IMG/VR virus record: IMGVR_UViG_3300015371_000076
Span: 1-44,962 of that record
Reading direction: 5' to 3' (one strand)
From: a virus
DNA length: 44,962 nucleotides
Positions 24,123-37,235 of the stretch are shown one piece after another. The position numbers and the translations under genes are program-made. The notes beneath the pieces were generated by a model. The model was not told the origin of the DNA. It made no database searches and saw only the letters and a program-made list of their open reading frames with translations. Position 1 is the first letter of the stretch. Each line of letters opens with the position of its first letter.

Positions 24123-26171
24123 TCAGATCTCTTCCAGCTTTTTTAGTATCCTAGGCAATAGTGCTTCCATCATTGTTTGTCTCTGCTTGTCTTCTTTGCG
24201 TTCTTGTTCCAGCCTACGTTTGACAACGGAAGGAACGAATTCTATTTCTTCGGCTATGTCGACTGGTATTGGATCTTGTAGTTCTACTGATGCAGCTTTC
24301 GGTGATACATGCAAGTCCTGTTTTAGATTCTTTGTAATGTCTTGGGCATCAAAGCCAGTTGATGGGCCGCCGCCAGTGTTTGGACTTGTTGATCCTGGTG
24401 TTGGATTGGTATCCATCTGGCTCTGTCTTATATCTACAATCTTCTGTCTAAGTCCAAATTGCGCTTCTTGGAAGGCTTGTTTATCTAATTGACGTTGCTG
24501 GAAGTCTGGTATGTCTTCGTCTAGGCCTACTCCCTTCAATACTCTTTCGCCGCCTATTGGGCCAGCGCCATTATTGAATAGAATCATGTAAGCCTTGACT
24601 TTATCTAGGAATACATCTAGGCTAACTGGGTCGAATACTACCTTTATCTTCCATTTTAGTCTGCTTACCTTGATTTCTCCGGTCTTTGGATCGATTGCTC
24701 CGTCGAATAGGCCGAAAGCTTGTGGTTGTTTCGGTTGTGGTTGTGAGTTATTCTTGTTGTCTGGATTCGTTGGTTGTGCTGTATGCTGTAATGTTGTCTT
24801 TTTAGCTGGTGTGTTGGTTGTTGGATCGTTCTGGAAGGTTTGGGTAACGTTAACCTTGGGTGCTGGTGGCGGCGGGATTGTTGGTTGAACCTTTAATTGT
24901 TCTTCTGGTGGAACAAATCCTTCTCCTGGCTCGTCAATGATGCCTTTCTGGTCGTTTGATATCAGTGTTTCAAGGATTGAATCTATCCATTGCTCTTGAA
25001 TTATGTCAGATAACCAGTTTTGATATGGTTGTAGCACGAATACGTTCCATGCTTCCATTAATTCCTGTGATGTAGCACGGTTCATAACATCGGGATTGTA
25101 TAGTAACTCTGGCATTTGCAATTGCCTGATTATCTCTAGATTGTTTTGTGACCGCTCTGTTGTCATTTCTTGTAGGGATACGTTTAGAACGATAGGATCG
25201 ATGCTGACTTGCTGGTTTGTTACGATAGCATTACCAGCGCCATTAGCTACATCATTCTGCATTTGGTTCATTACTGTTTGGTTGACGTTATTTGGCATCT
25301 TTATCAAGAGCATTGGACTCCATAAACGGAAGTTTGTCTCTGGTAAGTTGCGCTGGTTAATGACTCGGTTGGTTTCTGAAAGCGATATTATCTTCTCAAA
25401 CAGTGAATAGCCGTATTGGTATGTGCCTGGTGACATGTGATAATTCCTAAGCGCGATATAGAAGATATCCTCGGCCTTCAGTATGCTTTGTGGGAATTTA
25501 TAATCAAGGTATTCCAATCCAATAAGCTGCCATGAGCGTTTATCAACAAACCTACGACCTAGTGACATTGCTGGTAGTATCTTCAAGGCTGTTGGTAGGT
25601 TGGTTTGTGGATCTCGCTCTATGATTGCCGCGTCTGACCCGAATACAGCAGCTTGAACGAATAAGGCTTTGAAGTTATTTGTTGCCTTTACGTCTTTGTT
25701 GATAATGTCTATCTCGCGTTTGAATGATTTGATCTTCTCGTTTGACTTTAAGGCGTCTAATGTTGCTTTGCGTTCCTCGTCGTTGTCGAATTCATCATTA
25801 ACGTCTATGACTGTTCGGAAGTGATCGCCTAGTATGCTTTGAGCTAGAACCTCGACGGCCATTGATGTGATACCATCCTCACGCCATGATTCGTGGAAAC
25901 GTATCAATTCCTCAAAACTGTATGTGGGTTTGAATGCGCTTGAGACATTAGGGCCTAGAACGCGTCTAATGTCTTTATCTTCCTCTGCTGGTAGGTCTTT
26001 ACCATTACCACTACCGCTATCTATAAGCTGTGAGAAAAAGGCTGATCTTGTTGCTAGTAGACCAGCATTACGCATTGATATAGTTGAATAAGTAATATCT
26101 GGAATTGGTTTCTTCTCGGTTTCTAGACGCTTAACAAATGCGTCTTCATTCTTCTTGTTTGCACTAACCAC
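24123..26171 (-). CDS. Portal protein
   Basis: 682 residues from a GTG start. FKPTYSFEELIRFHESWRED, DGITSMAVEVLAQSILGDHF and FGSDAAIIERDPQTNLPTAL give the N-terminal portal domain (about 90-250). YHMSPGTYQYGYSLFEKIIS and YNPDVMNRATSQELMEAWNV (about 255-400) give the stem/clip part, and a long Pro/Gln/Asn-rich region follows. The C-terminal coiled coil (RRLEQERKEDKQRQTMMEAL) is typical of the crown. It is the dodecameric ring through which terminase pumps DNA. Size is at the large end for the family. Confidence 0.82.
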   Translation of the reverse strand: MVSANKKNEDAFVKRLETEKKPIPDITYSTISMRNAGLLATRSAFFSQLIDSGSGNGKDLPAEEDKDIRRVLGPNVSSAFKPTYSFEELIRFHESWREDGITSMAVEVLAQSILGDHFRTVIDVNDEFDNDEERKATLDALKSNEKIKSFKREIDIINKDVKATNNFKALFVQAAVFGSDAAIIERDPQTNLPTALKILPAMSLGRRFVDKRSWQLIGLEYLDYKFPQSILKAEDIFYIALRNYHMSPGTYQYGYSLFEKIISLSETNRVINQRNLPETNFRLWSPMLLIKMPNNVNQTVMNQMQNDVANGAGNAIVTNQQVSIDPIVLNVSLQEMTTERSQNNLEIIRQLQMPELLYNPDVMNRATSQELMEAWNVFVLQPYQNWLSDIIQEQWIDSILETLISNDQKGIIDEPGEGFVPPEEQLKVQPTIPPPPAPKVNVTQTFQNDPTTNTPAKKTTLQHTAQPTNPDNKNNSQPQPKQPQAFGLFDGAIDPKTGEIKVSRLKWKIKVVFDPVSLDVFLDKVKAYMILFNNGAGPIGGERVLKGVGLDEDIPDFQQRQLDKQAFQEAQFGLRQKIVDIRQSQMDTNPTPGSTSPNTGGGPSTGFDAQDITKNLKQDLHVSPKAASVELQDPIPVDIAEEIEFVPSVVKRRLEQERKEDKQRQTMMEALLPRILKKLEEI

Positions 26172-26575: not shown

Positions 26576-27385
26576 TTATTCCATTAGTCTGATAGTCCAA
26601 AAGTCGTCTGATAGGTCGTTGTTAAGCAAGTATTCATACAACATTGTAAAGTTGCCTTTGCTACCCCAATTGCTGCCCCATGAATTACGCAACAGAAACC
26701 TACCTGTCGAATCGTCATAGCCAATGCATAGAACTGCGTGGCCCCCTAGCAACTGTTCGCCATTTGTCGGCATTGGCACATTTCCGGTTTCTGCTACATT
26801 TCTAGACTCAAATGAATCGTATACTGAAAAGCCTACGACAAACGGATAACCACTAGCTAAACAACCTTTCATTTGTTCTAGTGTTTGGTCTACTCTCATG
26901 TATTGTAGTGACTGATGTAGCTTTGCGTCGCTGTATGCCTTTATCCTAGGTTTGTTGGCAAACTTGGATATATCATAGGGCCATATTGTCTCATGCGGAA
27001 CACCTTTGATGTTAACGGCCTTGATACCATCTCTAATCATTGCACCAGCATCCTCTTTAACTGAATGCTCCATAACGCGTTCGGCGTAGTAAATGAATAA
27101 GCGTGAAGGTGTGAATACTTCCTCGTTCTGTTTCTTTAGCAGGAATTCAACTGCGGCAGCTATTGCGTTGCCAGTGCATGAGCCTAATTGACCTTGATCA
27201 TATACTTCTGTTGGCATATTGTCGGATAGGTCTATTGATGCTGGTAATGTGTCTAGTGTTTGTTGCTTTACTTGTAGTCTAAAATCTCGGTGATCTGGTA
27301 AATCGGGTTTCCATCCATAGCCTTTAATCTTCATTTCTGGTAATGGTCTAACTGCTTGTTTTGGTTTAACTTTGTATCTAACCAT
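26576..27385 (-). CDS. Papain-like (C1A) cysteine protease
   Basis: 269 residues, ATG start. The catalytic set is complete: Q64 and C70 in YDQGQLGSCTGNA, H216 in LLGGHAVLCIGYDD and N234 in LRNSWGSNWG. The N-terminal 50 residues (WKPDLPDHRDFRLQ) correspond to the usual lead-in. There is no signal peptide, so it acts in the cytoplasm, in the virion, or outside after lysis. Viral copies are unusual. A host without peptidoglycan but with an S-layer would make a protease a sensible lysis or entry enzyme. Alternatives are capsid processing or attack on host proteins. Confidence 0.9.
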   Translation of the reverse strand: MVRYKVKPKQAVRPLPEMKIKGYGWKPDLPDHRDFRLQVKQQTLDTLPASIDLSDNMPTEVYDQGQLGSCTGNAIAAAVEFLLKKQNEEVFTPSRLFIYYAERVMEHSVKEDAGAMIRDGIKAVNIKGVPHETIWPYDISKFANKPRIKAYSDAKLHQSLQYMRVDQTLEQMKGCLASGYPFVVGFSVYDSFESRNVAETGNVPMPTNGEQLLGGHAVLCIGYDDSTGRFLLRNSWGSNWGSKGNFTMLYEYLLNNDLSDDFWTIRLME

Positions 27386-30750: not shown

Positions 30751-32286
30751 TCACCTAGATATTGTATTACCGTAAGTATTATCTCTATCTGGATTCATAT
30801 CGTAGTATTCGCATGATAACCGGAGTGCGTCGAATAAGTCCCATGTTTGGCTGGATGTTTTGTCTTTTAGCAGCTTGCGTCCTTCAACTCGTGCTGTTCT
30901 TAAATCACTCATTAGATCCTCGAACTGATCAGGGTTTACAGCTAATAGCCCTTTGTCTGACAGTTCTTTCACTTTCTCTAACATGCTTTCTCCTTTCACT
31001 GAGAAGGGAATCGGTATTACTGTCATAGTGCCCTCTGCTTGCCAGTATTTGTTTTCCTTTTTCATGGCAGCCAACTCTTGCTCATAGAACTGGGATTCGC
31101 CTATTGCTATCTTTAAACTGCGAATAAAAGCTGGGTTAGCTGCATCAACATACACCTGATTGCCGTATTGGTTTAGCTGGTAATGGAAGATTAGGTTAGT
31201 TGCTAGGTTTATCATTTCTTCGCTTACTGGACGGTTGAATTGCTTAGCGTAGATAACGCGTATGTATCCGTCGACCTTCTCAGTTACAACAAAGGCTGTA
31301 TTGCTTGACCCATAGCCCACATCGATACCCATTGATTTGTGTGTTGCATAATTAACGGTTTCAAAGTCCAGCAATTTACGTCCATTTGCTTCAATGCTAT
31401 CAAGGGTAGAAAGCGGAAATAGATTGCCTGTATCAAAGTCGTATAATCCCATGTATTCTCGTTTGAAGTATCCTTTCTTTTGTTCTTGCTCGATTTCTCC
31501 CGCGTCGTAGATTTTGTTAAGGCCACGTTGATACAAATACTCTAGTTTCTTATATCCGTGTTCTTGCTCGTCTTGTTTCTCTATGGTTTCGTATATTCCT
31601 CCACGTTTGTTAGGAGTTGATACAAGGATAATCCAAGGTTGGCTTTTTATCCTATAACCCTCAGCAGCAGCGCGAGCCTCGTGTTGTTGGTGCACTGGGA
31701 AGAAATCAGCCTCGTCTAGCATTATCCAGAATACTTTAGCATAGCCTCTTAGCGACATGGCATTACTGGGGAAAGCTTGTATGGTTACGCCGTTAATTAT
31801 TACCGTGTCTTTGTTGCTCTGGAAGGTTGTGAACTTGGGTTGTAGAATTCCTTTTATGCGAAGGATTTCTTCTTGGGCTAGTTCGACTCTTGGGCCTGTA
31901 ATGATACACGCTCGGTAGCCGTTCCAGTGGTTATCGAATACACAGAGCCACGTAAGATACCGTAAGAAGAATTCAGTAAGTCCCAATCCTCTTGATTTTT
32001 TGACCCATAGATTTTTGTAAACTTTGAGGTATTTGTATAGTTCTTGCTCGTAGTCGTAGATTGGGTGTGGTTTGCCGTTTTTCTCAGGCAATCCCACAAT
32101 ATGGTTAAAGCAACATTGGTGAGCGGTTCTATCGAACTCGATCTCATGCTGTATAATATCGTCAATCCAGAATGGTTTATTATGAAATATTGTTAGGTTG
32201 GGATCGTTAGCCGAATATTCTCTGGCTTGTTGCTCCTTGATCTTCCTCTGTTGTTCCGCTAGGTCTTTGTGCTTCGGTAACGTCAT
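30751..32286 (-). CDS. terL: Terminase large subunit
   Basis: 511 residues. The ATPase domain has Walker A-like KKSRGLGLTE at 96-105, Walker B VFWIMLDEADF at 185-195 and the coupling motif LVSTPNKRGG at 221-230. The RNase H-like nuclease has D322 (GIDVGYG), D381 (VYVDAANP) and D483/D486 (TWDLFDAL). It powers DNA translocation and cuts the concatemer. The start (MTLPKHKDLAEQQRKIKEQQ) overlaps the small-subunit gene by 80 bases. Full length for the family and all key residues are present. Confidence 0.95.
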   Translation of the reverse strand: MTLPKHKDLAEQQRKIKEQQAREYSANDPNLTIFHNKPFWIDDIIQHEIEFDRTAHQCCFNHIVGLPEKNGKPHPIYDYEQELYKYLKVYKNLWVKKSRGLGLTEFFLRYLTWLCVFDNHWNGYRACIITGPRVELAQEEILRIKGILQPKFTTFQSNKDTVIINGVTIQAFPSNAMSLRGYAKVFWIMLDEADFFPVHQQHEARAAAEGYRIKSQPWIILVSTPNKRGGIYETIEKQDEQEHGYKKLEYLYQRGLNKIYDAGEIEQEQKKGYFKREYMGLYDFDTGNLFPLSTLDSIEANGRKLLDFETVNYATHKSMGIDVGYGSSNTAFVVTEKVDGYIRVIYAKQFNRPVSEEMINLATNLIFHYQLNQYGNQVYVDAANPAFIRSLKIAIGESQFYEQELAAMKKENKYWQAEGTMTVIPIPFSVKGESMLEKVKELSDKGLLAVNPDQFEDLMSDLRTARVEGRKLLKDKTSSQTWDLFDALRLSCEYYDMNPDRDNTYGNTISR

Positions 32287-34640: not shown

Positions 34641-35369
34641 CTAGCCTGTTTTATTGCCAGTAACGTTACTACCAGTATTGCTATTGCTGTTATTGCCAGT
34701 GTTGGTATTGTTAATCGGATTTGGGTTAATTATCGGATAAGGTGGGTTTGGAGGCGTTGTATTGCCTGTTTGGTTCTGCTGTTGTTGTGCACATGAGCAT
34801 GTTGGAATTGGAGGTTGTGGCACTGGTGGATCTACGACTGTGACATTACCAGGAGTTGTTGTTACTGTTTGGTTATCTGGTGCTATTACCGTGACGTTGC
34901 CTTTAGTCGTTGTTACGTTTTCACTTGGAGGCGCTACAACTACCGTATCATTGTTGACATGTGTTACATTGCCGTTTTGAACTTCTGTGACATTACCTTT
35001 TTGGTCAATGATTGTTACGTTGCCATTTTGTGTTGAATTGCCTTTAGTGTTTGTAGTGTTGTTGTTGTTCTTGGTTTGGTTATCGCCTGGTGTTATAATC
35101 GTGCCATTTTTCCCACCTTCTGGGCCTGGTGGAACGACAATAACAGGGCCTTGAGTTGGTTCACCTGACTTTGTTACAGTTATAACAATATGTTTGTCAT
35201 CTTGCACTGTTTGAATATTAGCAAATCCTCCTGTAATGCTTGAAGTTGTTGTGGTTGGTTGTGTCTGTGTTTGGTTCTGTGCTATTACTGCCGTGTTTGT
35301 TGCTATTGCTGAAAATGCCATTGTTACGAATGCTATTGTTGCGATTATTCCCGCTATGATTGCTTTCAT
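34641..35369 (-). CDS. Secreted, sequon-rich repeat protein
   Basis: 242 residues with the start set at the ATG at 35369 (a TTG at 35381 adds 4). MKAIIAGIIATIAFVTMAFS is a signal peptide. The mature chain is low-complexity, with about twenty N-x-S/T sequons and five GNVT units (GNVTEVQNGNVTHV, GNVTVIAPDNQTVTTTPGNV). A Pro-rich segment with CSC and an Asn/Thr/Gly tail follow. In archaea such sequons are N-glycosylated, so this is probably a heavily glycosylated surface or virion-coat protein. It follows the copper oxidase and the Ig-like protein. Confidence 0.65.
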   Translation of the reverse strand: MKAIIAGIIATIAFVTMAFSAIATNTAVIAQNQTQTQPTTTTSSITGGFANIQTVQDDKHIVITVTKSGEPTQGPVIVVPPGPEGGKNGTIITPGDNQTKNNNNTTNTKGNSTQNGNVTIIDQKGNVTEVQNGNVTHVNNDTVVVAPPSENVTTTKGNVTVIAPDNQTVTTTPGNVTVVDPPVPQPPIPTCSCAQQQQNQTGNTTPPNPPYPIINPNPINNTNTGNNSNSNTGSNVTGNKTG

Positions 35370-35410: not shown

Positions 35411-36049
35411 TTATCGGCAGCTTGAACCGCTGCAATGGCCTTTACTATCTTTAGAACTGCCGCCGCCGCTACTACCGCTTCCAGAACCACTTGATTTAAC
35501 ACTACTATCAGTTACAACAAAACCTGTTGATACTCCTTTTTCCTGACCGTCTGGGCTTGTAGCGTTAACCAGGGCTAAAAACTGACCAGGCTTTGCGTGA
35601 GTGCCAATGTTTGCAGTTAGGTCTATCTCACCTTTTTTGTCAGTTTTTCCACCTAACAACACTTTTTCCTTTGATGTTACATAGTCAATTATCATGCTTC
35701 TGATGGTTACGTTTGATAGGCCTGTTCCGTTTTCCATTGCTGCTTTGACGTGAATTACTTCTGGTTTGCCTACTGATATGCTGGGTTTGTCAGGAATTGC
35801 TGTTACAACTAGTGATTTTGCTACTGTGCTGTTGGTTGGTGCTTCGGTTGAGCCTACTGATTGCAAGTGCTCGTTTTCATTTGGCAAAACTGCATTGCCA
35901 CTAGTGCCAGGGCCTATATCACCTTTAGGCATTATTGCGCTGTCGCTTGTCGATGCTGCTTTTACTATTCTACCTATACTATAGCCGACAATTAGATTAG
36001 TTGCCAGGATTGCAATTATTCCAATTGCTAATAGATATTTTGCCTTCAT
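35411..36049 (-). CDS. Secreted Ig-like domain protein
   Basis: 212 residues. MKAKYLLAIGIIAILATNLI is a signal peptide or N-terminal anchor. Residues about 80-175 form one Ig-like beta-sandwich (SLVVTAIPDKPSISVGKPEV, then GKTDKKGEIDLTANIGTHAK). The end is a Ser/Gly-rich tail with three clustered Cys residues (GHCSGSSCR). It starts 12 bases after the copper oxidase stop, so the two are co-transcribed and probably act together outside the membrane. Function unknown. Confidence 0.6.
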   Translation of the reverse strand: MKAKYLLAIGIIAILATNLIVGYSIGRIVKAASTSDSAIMPKGDIGPGTSGNAVLPNENEHLQSVGSTEAPTNSTVAKSLVVTAIPDKPSISVGKPEVIHVKAAMENGTGLSNVTIRSMIIDYVTSKEKVLLGGKTDKKGEIDLTANIGTHAKPGQFLALVNATSPDGQEKGVSTGFVVTDSSVKSSGSGSGSSGGGSSKDSKGHCSGSSCR

Positions 36050-36061
36050 TCTGTGCCTTTA

Positions 36062-37177
36062 CTACTTGACACTAAATAAACTTGACCATCCTCGCGCGCC
36101 GACTTGCTCGAAGTGAGCGTGTGCCATGTAGTTACCAGGGAAGTCGAATTGTGTCTCAATAAGGCCTCTGTCGCCTTGACCGAGAACGAGCATGTCGCTG
36201 GTAAGCATTGGGCTTTTACTTGTTGCACTTGGGTAATATTGGAATACTTGACCGTGCAAATGAAAGGAGTTTTCTTCAAAGTCCAACATGTTATACATAT
36301 AGATCCTGACAGGTTCATGTAGCTTTATTGGTATTGGATGATGCATGTAATAATTTGCTATGCCGTTGACAGTGTATACGGCGTTATCGTGCTCGTTGTT
36401 TATTTTCTCAAATATGTCTCTTGCATTTGAGTCATTACCAGACATCATTGCGTTAGCCTCTGCAACTGTTGGAAATCTTGGAAATATTGGCTGTTTTATG
36501 TTTAAATCGTAACCATTCAAATACATTACAATTTCGTGAGCCTGTGGCCTAGCTGCGTTTGCTGGTGGGTCGATAATTAAACCACCATATAAGCCTCTGT
36601 TGATATGCTGCGATACTGGGGGCATATGACAATGATAGGGAAATATGCCTACTGGGTTAGCCGTAAAAACATAGGTAAAAGATTTGCCTGGTGAGATAAA
36701 GCCTGAATCACCTGAAACAATCGGGACGCCATCCATACTACCAGGGTGAATTGAATGCATGTGGAAAGAGTGAGGCATCGTTCCCTTGTTTATTACTTTT
36801 ATCTGGATGTGATCTCCTGCTGTCATTCGTAGCGTTGGGCCTGGTATTGACGCGTTAAACGTCCAACCAGGGAACATTATTGATTGTTGAGTGTCTTCTG
36901 GTAAAGTTATCGGGATTTTGTGATTTTCTTCGATAATCAGTGTGTATTGCCTTAGAGTTGTTCCATTAGGGAAAAAGGTCACATGGCCGCAGTTAAAGGT
37001 TGTTGGAAATTCGGCCATTGTTGGTGGTTTAGCCGTGTCTGTTGCACAGTTTTTTTGTTTGTCGTATGCTACTCGCTGATCTACTGTTATGGCTTTTGTC
37101 GCTATTGGTGTTATTGCTAGTGCTGATAGGAGTAGAATTGTTATTGTAAAAAGAATCGTTTTGCTTAAATTTAACAC
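36062..37177 (-). CDS. Secreted two-domain multicopper oxidase
   Basis: 371 residues from a GTG start, with signal peptide (TILFTITILLLSALAITPIA). Four HxH pairs can build a trinuclear copper centre: H139/H141 (HSFHMHSIHPG), H182/H184 (YHCHM), H306/H308 (FHLHG) and H353/H355 (MAHAHF). Type 1 ligands are H136, C183 and H191, all in domain 1, with L196 where Met is common. This fits two-domain oxidases of ammonia-oxidising archaea rather than a classical nitrite reductase, which lacks the full set of HxH pairs. It acts outside the membrane, perhaps in copper handling. Viral copies of an AOA-specific oxidase have been reported from soil metagenomes. Confidence 0.88.
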   Translation of the reverse strand: MLNLSKTILFTITILLLSALAITPIATKAITVDQRVAYDKQKNCATDTAKPPTMAEFPTTFNCGHVTFFPNGTTLRQYTLIIEENHKIPITLPEDTQQSIMFPGWTFNASIPGPTLRMTAGDHIQIKVINKGTMPHSFHMHSIHPGSMDGVPIVSGDSGFISPGKSFTYVFTANPVGIFPYHCHMPPVSQHINRGLYGGLIIDPPANAARPQAHEIVMYLNGYDLNIKQPIFPRFPTVAEANAMMSGNDSNARDIFEKINNEHDNAVYTVNGIANYYMHHPIPIKLHEPVRIYMYNMLDFEENSFHLHGQVFQYYPSATSKSPMLTSDMLVLGQGDRGLIETQFDFPGNYMAHAHFEQVGARGWSSLFSVK

Positions 37178-37199: not shown

Positions 37200-37209
37200 C
37201 TATAAAAAA
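37200..37209 (-). promoter_or_regulatory. TATA-like box for the multicopper oxidase
   Basis: The minus strand reads CTTTTTTATAG centred about 26 bases upstream of the GTG at 37177, the spacing of a leaderless archaeal promoter. The copper-oxidase block therefore has its own promoter. The same T tract could also end the upstream transcript. Confidence 0.45.
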
Positions 37210-37235
37210 GTTAAGGTGAATGATTAGTTAGTTAG

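Follow-up and report, generated by a model that had tools for sequence, protein, structure and literature searches.

What is a multicopper oxidase (MCO) doing among the genes of a virus, and to which of the enzymes of ammonia-oxidising archaea (AOA) does it correspond? The window analysed here, i.e. the whole 44,962-nt stretch of IMG/VR record IMGVR_UViG_3300015371_000076, includes at nucleotides 36062..37177 of the minus strand an ORF with a GTG start and a TAG stop that encodes a secreted two-domain MCO, assigned below to group II of the AOA MCO1-type family. MCO1 is an auxiliary gene repeatedly reported for soil AOA viruses: it has been described in AOA viruses of two soils, together with structure comparisons and virome read counts (PMC9859776, PMC11849493), and MCOs are known on integrated elements (PMC6563490). 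The report mentioned in the earlier note is real, and since virus-borne MCO1 of soil AOA is already published the finding is not new in kind. The published contigs 053596 (PMC9859776), 08162653 and 08248335 (PMC11849493) are, like the window, from tailed AOA viruses with an MCO1-type gene, for which the same role was proposed; they were compared by text only, which leaves their assignment to group I or II unstated, and the window could even be closely related or identical to one of them. Added here are the group II clade, its separation from ZIP permeases, a second IMG/VR virus and a correction concerning the axial leucine.

Viral context and putative promoter of the MCO gene

The contig includes genes for a terminase large subunit (TerL), a portal-like protein, a tape measure protein and tail proteins, in agreement with the description of an MCO lying amid virus genes. 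The nearest relatives of TerL (30751..32286, minus strand) are found in AOA proviruses including Pro-Nvie1, with up to 43% identity, and its sole match among 50,697 phage records was Pro-Nvie1 of Nitrososphaera viennensis. The portal protein (24123..26171, minus strand) was recognised by its resemblance to the Phage_portal protein of G005, a second MCO-carrying virus discussed below. Judged from the relationships of TerL and from the presence of AmoA in genomes that carry group II genes, the window is a head-tail virus of soil AOA, and the MCO, a host-type metabolic gene inside an AOA virus genome, is an auxiliary metabolic gene. No IMG/VR relatives of the virus were confirmed through TerL. 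No integrase was recognised among the window ORFs scanned, and neither tRNA genes nor Rfam families were found in the window. A papain-family cysteine protease (PF00112, 2e-14; 26576-27385) adjoins the portal gene and is perhaps a head maturation protease. Three adjacent proteins encoded between nucleotides 13893 and 18081 have a common N-terminal motif (FTDFKEV ... YGSD ... MQIFNGKVV), as might be expected of paralogous virion proteins of the fibre type.

The gene behind the MCO (35411..36049, minus strand) starts 12 nt after the MCO stop, and because of this short gap it is probably co-transcribed with the MCO. It encodes a 212-amino-acid secreted or membrane-anchored protein that matches weakly parts of two AOA proteins, and its structure model was too poor for use (pLDDT 43.8). 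The third gene of this surface-protein cluster (34641..35366, minus strand), read from an ATG at 35366 and preceded by its own CTTTTTTAAC box, codes for an Asn/Thr-rich secreted protein with no relative in a search of solved structures. On the far side of the MCO there are 7.7 kb of compact orphan ORFs with traces of zinc-ribbon and winged-helix proteins, the two largest of which were without matches when 250 host-class genomes were searched; this is more in keeping with a viral early region than with a chromosome. There is no break in base composition between the MCO and the viral flanks, and the GC and GC3 of the MCO gene are those of the virus.

A TATA-like box, TTTTTTATA (37202..37210, minus strand), starts 33 nt upstream of the MCO GTG, a location appropriate for a leaderless start. 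TATA-like hexamers at -34..-23 are found at 0.85% of the window positions, and the MCO is the only one among 57 tabulated window starts with TTTATA at -45 to -20. The host group II genes L020, which likewise begins with GTG, and L073 have a ATTTTTATAT box at a similar distance, so that the leaderless promoter proposed earlier from the window holds up when host genes are considered. The published copper-limitation promoter motif was considered and set aside: its 3 matches in the window, versus 2.3 expected, are at chance level, and none is near the gene.

Copper sites and predicted structure of the viral MCO

The 371-amino-acid product, translated from the GTG, begins with a plain Sec-type signal peptide, MLNLSKTILFTITILLLSALAITPIATKA, that was read by eye from the translation and covers approximately residues 1-29, ending in TKA (37091..37177, minus strand). 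Pfam analysis identified the Cu-oxidase_3 (7e-22) and Cu-oxidase_2 (1e-17) domains, and according to both Pfam and the structure model the protein consists of just two cupredoxin domains and ends right after the second. An AlphaFold model built with 24 aligned sequences had a pLDDT of 75.5, with the signal peptide, one loop and the linker as its weakest parts. The nearest solved structures are those of the two-domain MCOs 3gdc (2e-62) and 7rab (5e-60), and the model matches their fold with TM scores of 0.84-0.89 when normalised by target length. These bacterial enzymes share the ligand pattern and the conserved Leu of the viral protein, but they lack the AOA-specific linker and cysteine pair described below.

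Copper ligands were assigned by alignment, and their roles at the T1 and T2/T3 sites are presumably those generally known for MCOs and NirK. The T1 ligands are H136, C183 and H191, with L196 at the axial position, and the trinuclear T2/T3 ligands are H139, H141, H182, H184, H306, H308, H353 and H355. The domain-1 motifs run from HSFHMH (H136, H139, H141) to HCHMPPVSQHINRGL (H182, C183, H184, H191, L196), and those of domain 2 from HLH (H306, H308) to HAH (H353, H355); the coordinates deduced from residue numbers are 36590..36772 and 36113..36262, respectively, on the minus strand. All 11 His and Cys ligands are intact, as the earlier note had seen, and the protein has the two cupredoxin domains, four HxH-type motifs and T1 Cys that define a two-domain MCO. 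As A354 occupies the position of the would-be T1 Cys in domain 2, the single T1 site is in domain 1. Beyond the ligands, 77 of 94 family-conserved positions are unchanged. Several of the 17 altered ones are near the last HxH (F352A, E358Q, F359V), and these replacements make altered kinetics or activity possible.

Two known enzyme types can be set aside at this point. NirK has T1 and T2 copper only and lacks the complete trinuclear His set, while eight of eight trinuclear His are present in the viral protein, so the assignment as NirK was rejected. The N. maritimus MCO4a type (PDB 9cck) has a two-domain core like that of the viral enzyme (TMq 0.63, with 28-29% identity in the structural alignment), but it includes an additional C-terminal cupredoxin domain; this extra blue copper domain being absent from the viral protein, its assignment as MCO4 was also rejected.

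The replacement of the axial Met by Leu (L196), which had been singled out as a distinctive trait, proved to be a family character. Leu is present in the viral MCO and in 54 of the 54 MCO1-type relatives examined, and had already been described for the host MCO1 of N. viennensis, NVIE_000600 (PMC7785015). The exchange was therefore rejected as a viral change.

Two groups of MCO1-type oxidases

The family was analysed by surveying 300 host-class genomes and by building two trees, an initial one with 88 proteins and a more careful one with 55. In the first tree a starred branch sets 77 rows of the MCO1 type apart from the 11 other AOA MCOs, and the viral MCO groups with the MCO1 type, apart from the MCO4-type and other AOA enzymes; the phylogeny suggested in the earlier note thus leaves the gene inside the AOA-type oxidases. 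The MCO1-type oxidases form two sister clades, the core MCO1 (group I) and group II, the latter with a support of 100/100. With the 55 proteins, the best tree and 200 of the 200 bootstrap trees counted placed the viral MCO with group II. It sits on a long terminal branch of 1.48 changes per site, and the closest host copies found are about 50% identical to it. Placement on the stem between groups I and II gave a p-AU of 0.43 and was not rejected.

Group II is characterised by a conserved C44/C63 pair, a longer interdomain linker and, at several positions, fixed residues unlike those of group I; the cysteine pair, the long linker and other residues exclusive to group II are all present in the viral MCO. 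Besides this protein the group includes L036, the MCO of G005, and genes of about 21 of the 300 host-class genomes; its hosts are soil AOA, AmoA having been found in 21 of the 22 group II-bearing genomes tested. Both N. viennensis MCO1 copies fall in group I, and the one at 49 kb is the gene that we take to be NVIE_000600. The core enzymes of this type resemble the viral MCO: they are secreted and have two domains, the first of which holds the T1 site, together with an axial Leu and eight T2/T3 His. They differ in forming a separate 100/100 clade, in lacking the C44/C63 pair, in their shorter linker and in having a ZIP permease gene as neighbour at 30 of 31 distinct loci. The viral gene was consequently rejected as a core MCO1, as it is outside that clade in all 200 bootstrap trees and has no recognised ZIP neighbour, with the qualification given by the p-AU of the stem position.

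Five of the 28 host group II copies (L021, L051, L053, L072 and L080) have lost trinuclear or T1 ligands, e.g. by Y139, Q141 or Y182, and are apparent non-oxidase paralogs. Other features were observed in the neighbourhood of host group II genes. In genome G290 (L158:36-2700) the remnant of a terminase C-terminus, broken by an in-frame stop, is found some 1 kb away from a group II MCO; the corresponding site is chromosomal in L020, and the remnant could be a provirus scar beside the MCO. A secreted protein with a very long poly-His tract at its end, possibly metal-binding, is encoded about 3.3 kb from another copy (L138:19778-20002), and a thioredoxin-NHL protein is found near group II MCOs in three host genomes (L126:2694-4199, L073:4774-6213 and L147).

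ZIP permeases and the copper-uptake model

Host MCO1 is induced by copper limitation and has been proposed to be a Cu(I) oxidiser, and the resulting model of copper uptake leans on the pairing of MCO1 with a ZIP permease (PMC7785015). The copper role of viral MCO1 has so far been argued from this copper response of the core host enzyme. The pairing was examined by tblastn with the ZIP protein neighbouring a group I gene, counting matches within 4.5 kb of the MCO. Of the 31 distinct group I loci, 30 had a ZIP permease beside the MCO, whereas the 21 distinct group II loci had none. These numbers were obtained from raw counts of 32 of 36 (group I) and 0 of 27 (group II) after duplicate records had been removed by hand and the mislabelled loci L079 and L127 moved to group II. 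The sole group I locus without ZIP is the N. viennensis copy by Pro-Nvie1, where the partner is reduced to an N-terminal 135-amino-acid ORF. This second MCO1 of N. viennensis adjoins the Pro-Nvie1 provirus (L163:1-5500, L002:1-2976).

Neither ZIP nor CopC/D or plastocyanin genes were recognised among the window proteins scanned, and no ZIP was recognised beside the viral MCO. Because core MCO1 is accompanied by ZIP and group II is not, the copper-uptake analogy is not simply transferable to the viral MCO. The case for an effect of the gene on copper supply is weakened, as it was argued from the ZIP-paired core enzyme and the viral MCO is a member of the sister clade that lacks ZIP. Both viral copies studied here are in the ZIP-less branch, which changes the host enzyme that is relevant to what the virus gains, and if the published viral copies are also in group II the inference from host to viral MCO1 needs a new test.

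A second virus and probable independent captures

A search of IMG/VR with a pattern that matches almost all of the fetched group I and II genes detected one other contig with an MCO, the 92.7-kb G005 (loci L036, L133-L137); MCO carriage is rare within IMG/VR, and a close viral relative suited to a dN/dS comparison was not found. Alignments that included an AOA MCO gave matches; peptide patterns made from a single protein had none in IMG/VR and GTDB, and one other alignment (A1) had none either. G005 and the window virus have in common the terminase (33% identity) and several tail proteins. The G005 MCO belongs to group II, keeps all copper ligands and is located between viral genes. It is nested with genes of genome G198 (100/98), and its closest host relative (L073) has a plastocyanin-type cupredoxin directly behind it. 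A 758-amino-acid DNA methylase of the same virus (L137:10114-12390) is broken near its N-terminus by a CLSEDTEVFTKDG stretch that resembles the start of an intein.

A single clade of the two viral MCOs was rejected (p-AU 0.005), with the caution that long branches are involved, and a clade of both with two host genes was not (p-AU 0.22). The position of the MCO relative to the terminase and portal genes also differs between the two viruses. At least two captures are the simplest reading of these results, and the trees suggest as much. Probable repeated capture and full retention of the ligands, which some host copies lose, suggest that the activity itself is retained by the viruses.

Possible functions

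The gene very probably belongs to an AOA virus and encodes a group II MCO that is functional. CueO and Fet3p are oxidases of known metal-oxidising chemistry that serve as an analogy. This chemistry and the proposal for host MCO1 (PMC7785015) make oxidation of copper or another metal the likeliest activity by family, and we give about even chances to Cu(I) or metal oxidation as the main role of the viral enzyme. Substrate data for AOA MCO1-type enzymes were not found. The MCO would be expressed from its own promoter during infection or lysogeny, exported through Sec and loaded with four Cu in the pseudoperiplasm or at the cell surface. The T1 site would take single electrons from a small reductant, most likely Cu(I) or another reduced metal, and the trinuclear site would reduce O2 to water. 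Such a cuprous or metal oxidase could hold copper as Cu(II) and thereby protect or feed the copper-dependent ammonia-oxidation chain during virus replication; direct coupling to ZIP import is not assumed, as group II has no partner permease. This explanation taken as a whole, an exported group II oxidase of an AOA virus that protects or feeds ammonia oxidation, is the best available, and the probability that it is right is about equal to that of its being wrong.

Among the alternatives a surface role has the most local support, as the MCO heads a row of secreted-protein genes in both viruses, although we regard it as rather unlikely. CotA, a spore-coat laccase, is the model for this role. The MCO and the secreted proteins behind it would act together to modify the virion or the surface of the cell by oxidative cross-linking, e.g. 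altering adhesion or excluding other viruses. The 212-amino-acid and Asn/Thr-rich proteins of the window would be the partners, and in G005 the MCO is followed by several genes in the same direction for small secreted proteins, including two collagen-like ones. The MCO neighbours of the two viruses show no mutual similarity, however. AOA MCOs have been tied to modification of the cell coat in biofilms, but the strongly expressed ones were MCO3 and MCO4, not MCO1 (PMC12448741). It would be a bolder and unlikely proposal that soil AOA viruses repeatedly took the ZIP-independent side branch of MCO1 for surface or virion oxidation rather than copper uptake, in one transcription unit with virus-specific secreted proteins.

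A function within ammonia oxidation itself, by oxidising hydroxylamine or NO or reducing nitrite, appears improbable. The viral MCO belongs to the superfamily of NirK and of N. maritimus MCO4a (PDB 9cck), which was reported to make HNO from NH2OH (PMC12448741). The complete trinuclear site is not that of a NirK, the C-terminal cupredoxin domain is missing, the axial residue is Leu versus Met in 5 of 7 other AOA MCOs, and the restriction of group II to about 21 of 300 host-class genomes indicates that it does not catalyse a core step.

We think it equally improbable that the MCO is host DNA caught by the virus that drifts with no benefit to it, even though the long branch, the 17 changed conserved positions and the loss of ligands in host copies are compatible with drift. 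Although the host copies found are no more than about 50% identical to it, the MCO keeps an open frame, its ligands, signal peptide and promoter; its base composition is viral, and neither of the two viral copies, which probably stem from separate captures, is damaged. Finally, an assembly chimera of a host MCO and a viral contig is extremely unlikely: in the assembled contig the MCO, the gene downstream and the flanks have strand, tight spacing and composition in common, the two large upstream proteins are unmatched in 250 host-class genomes while host group II genes sit among chromosomal genes, and a second viral contig carries a member of the family between viral genes.
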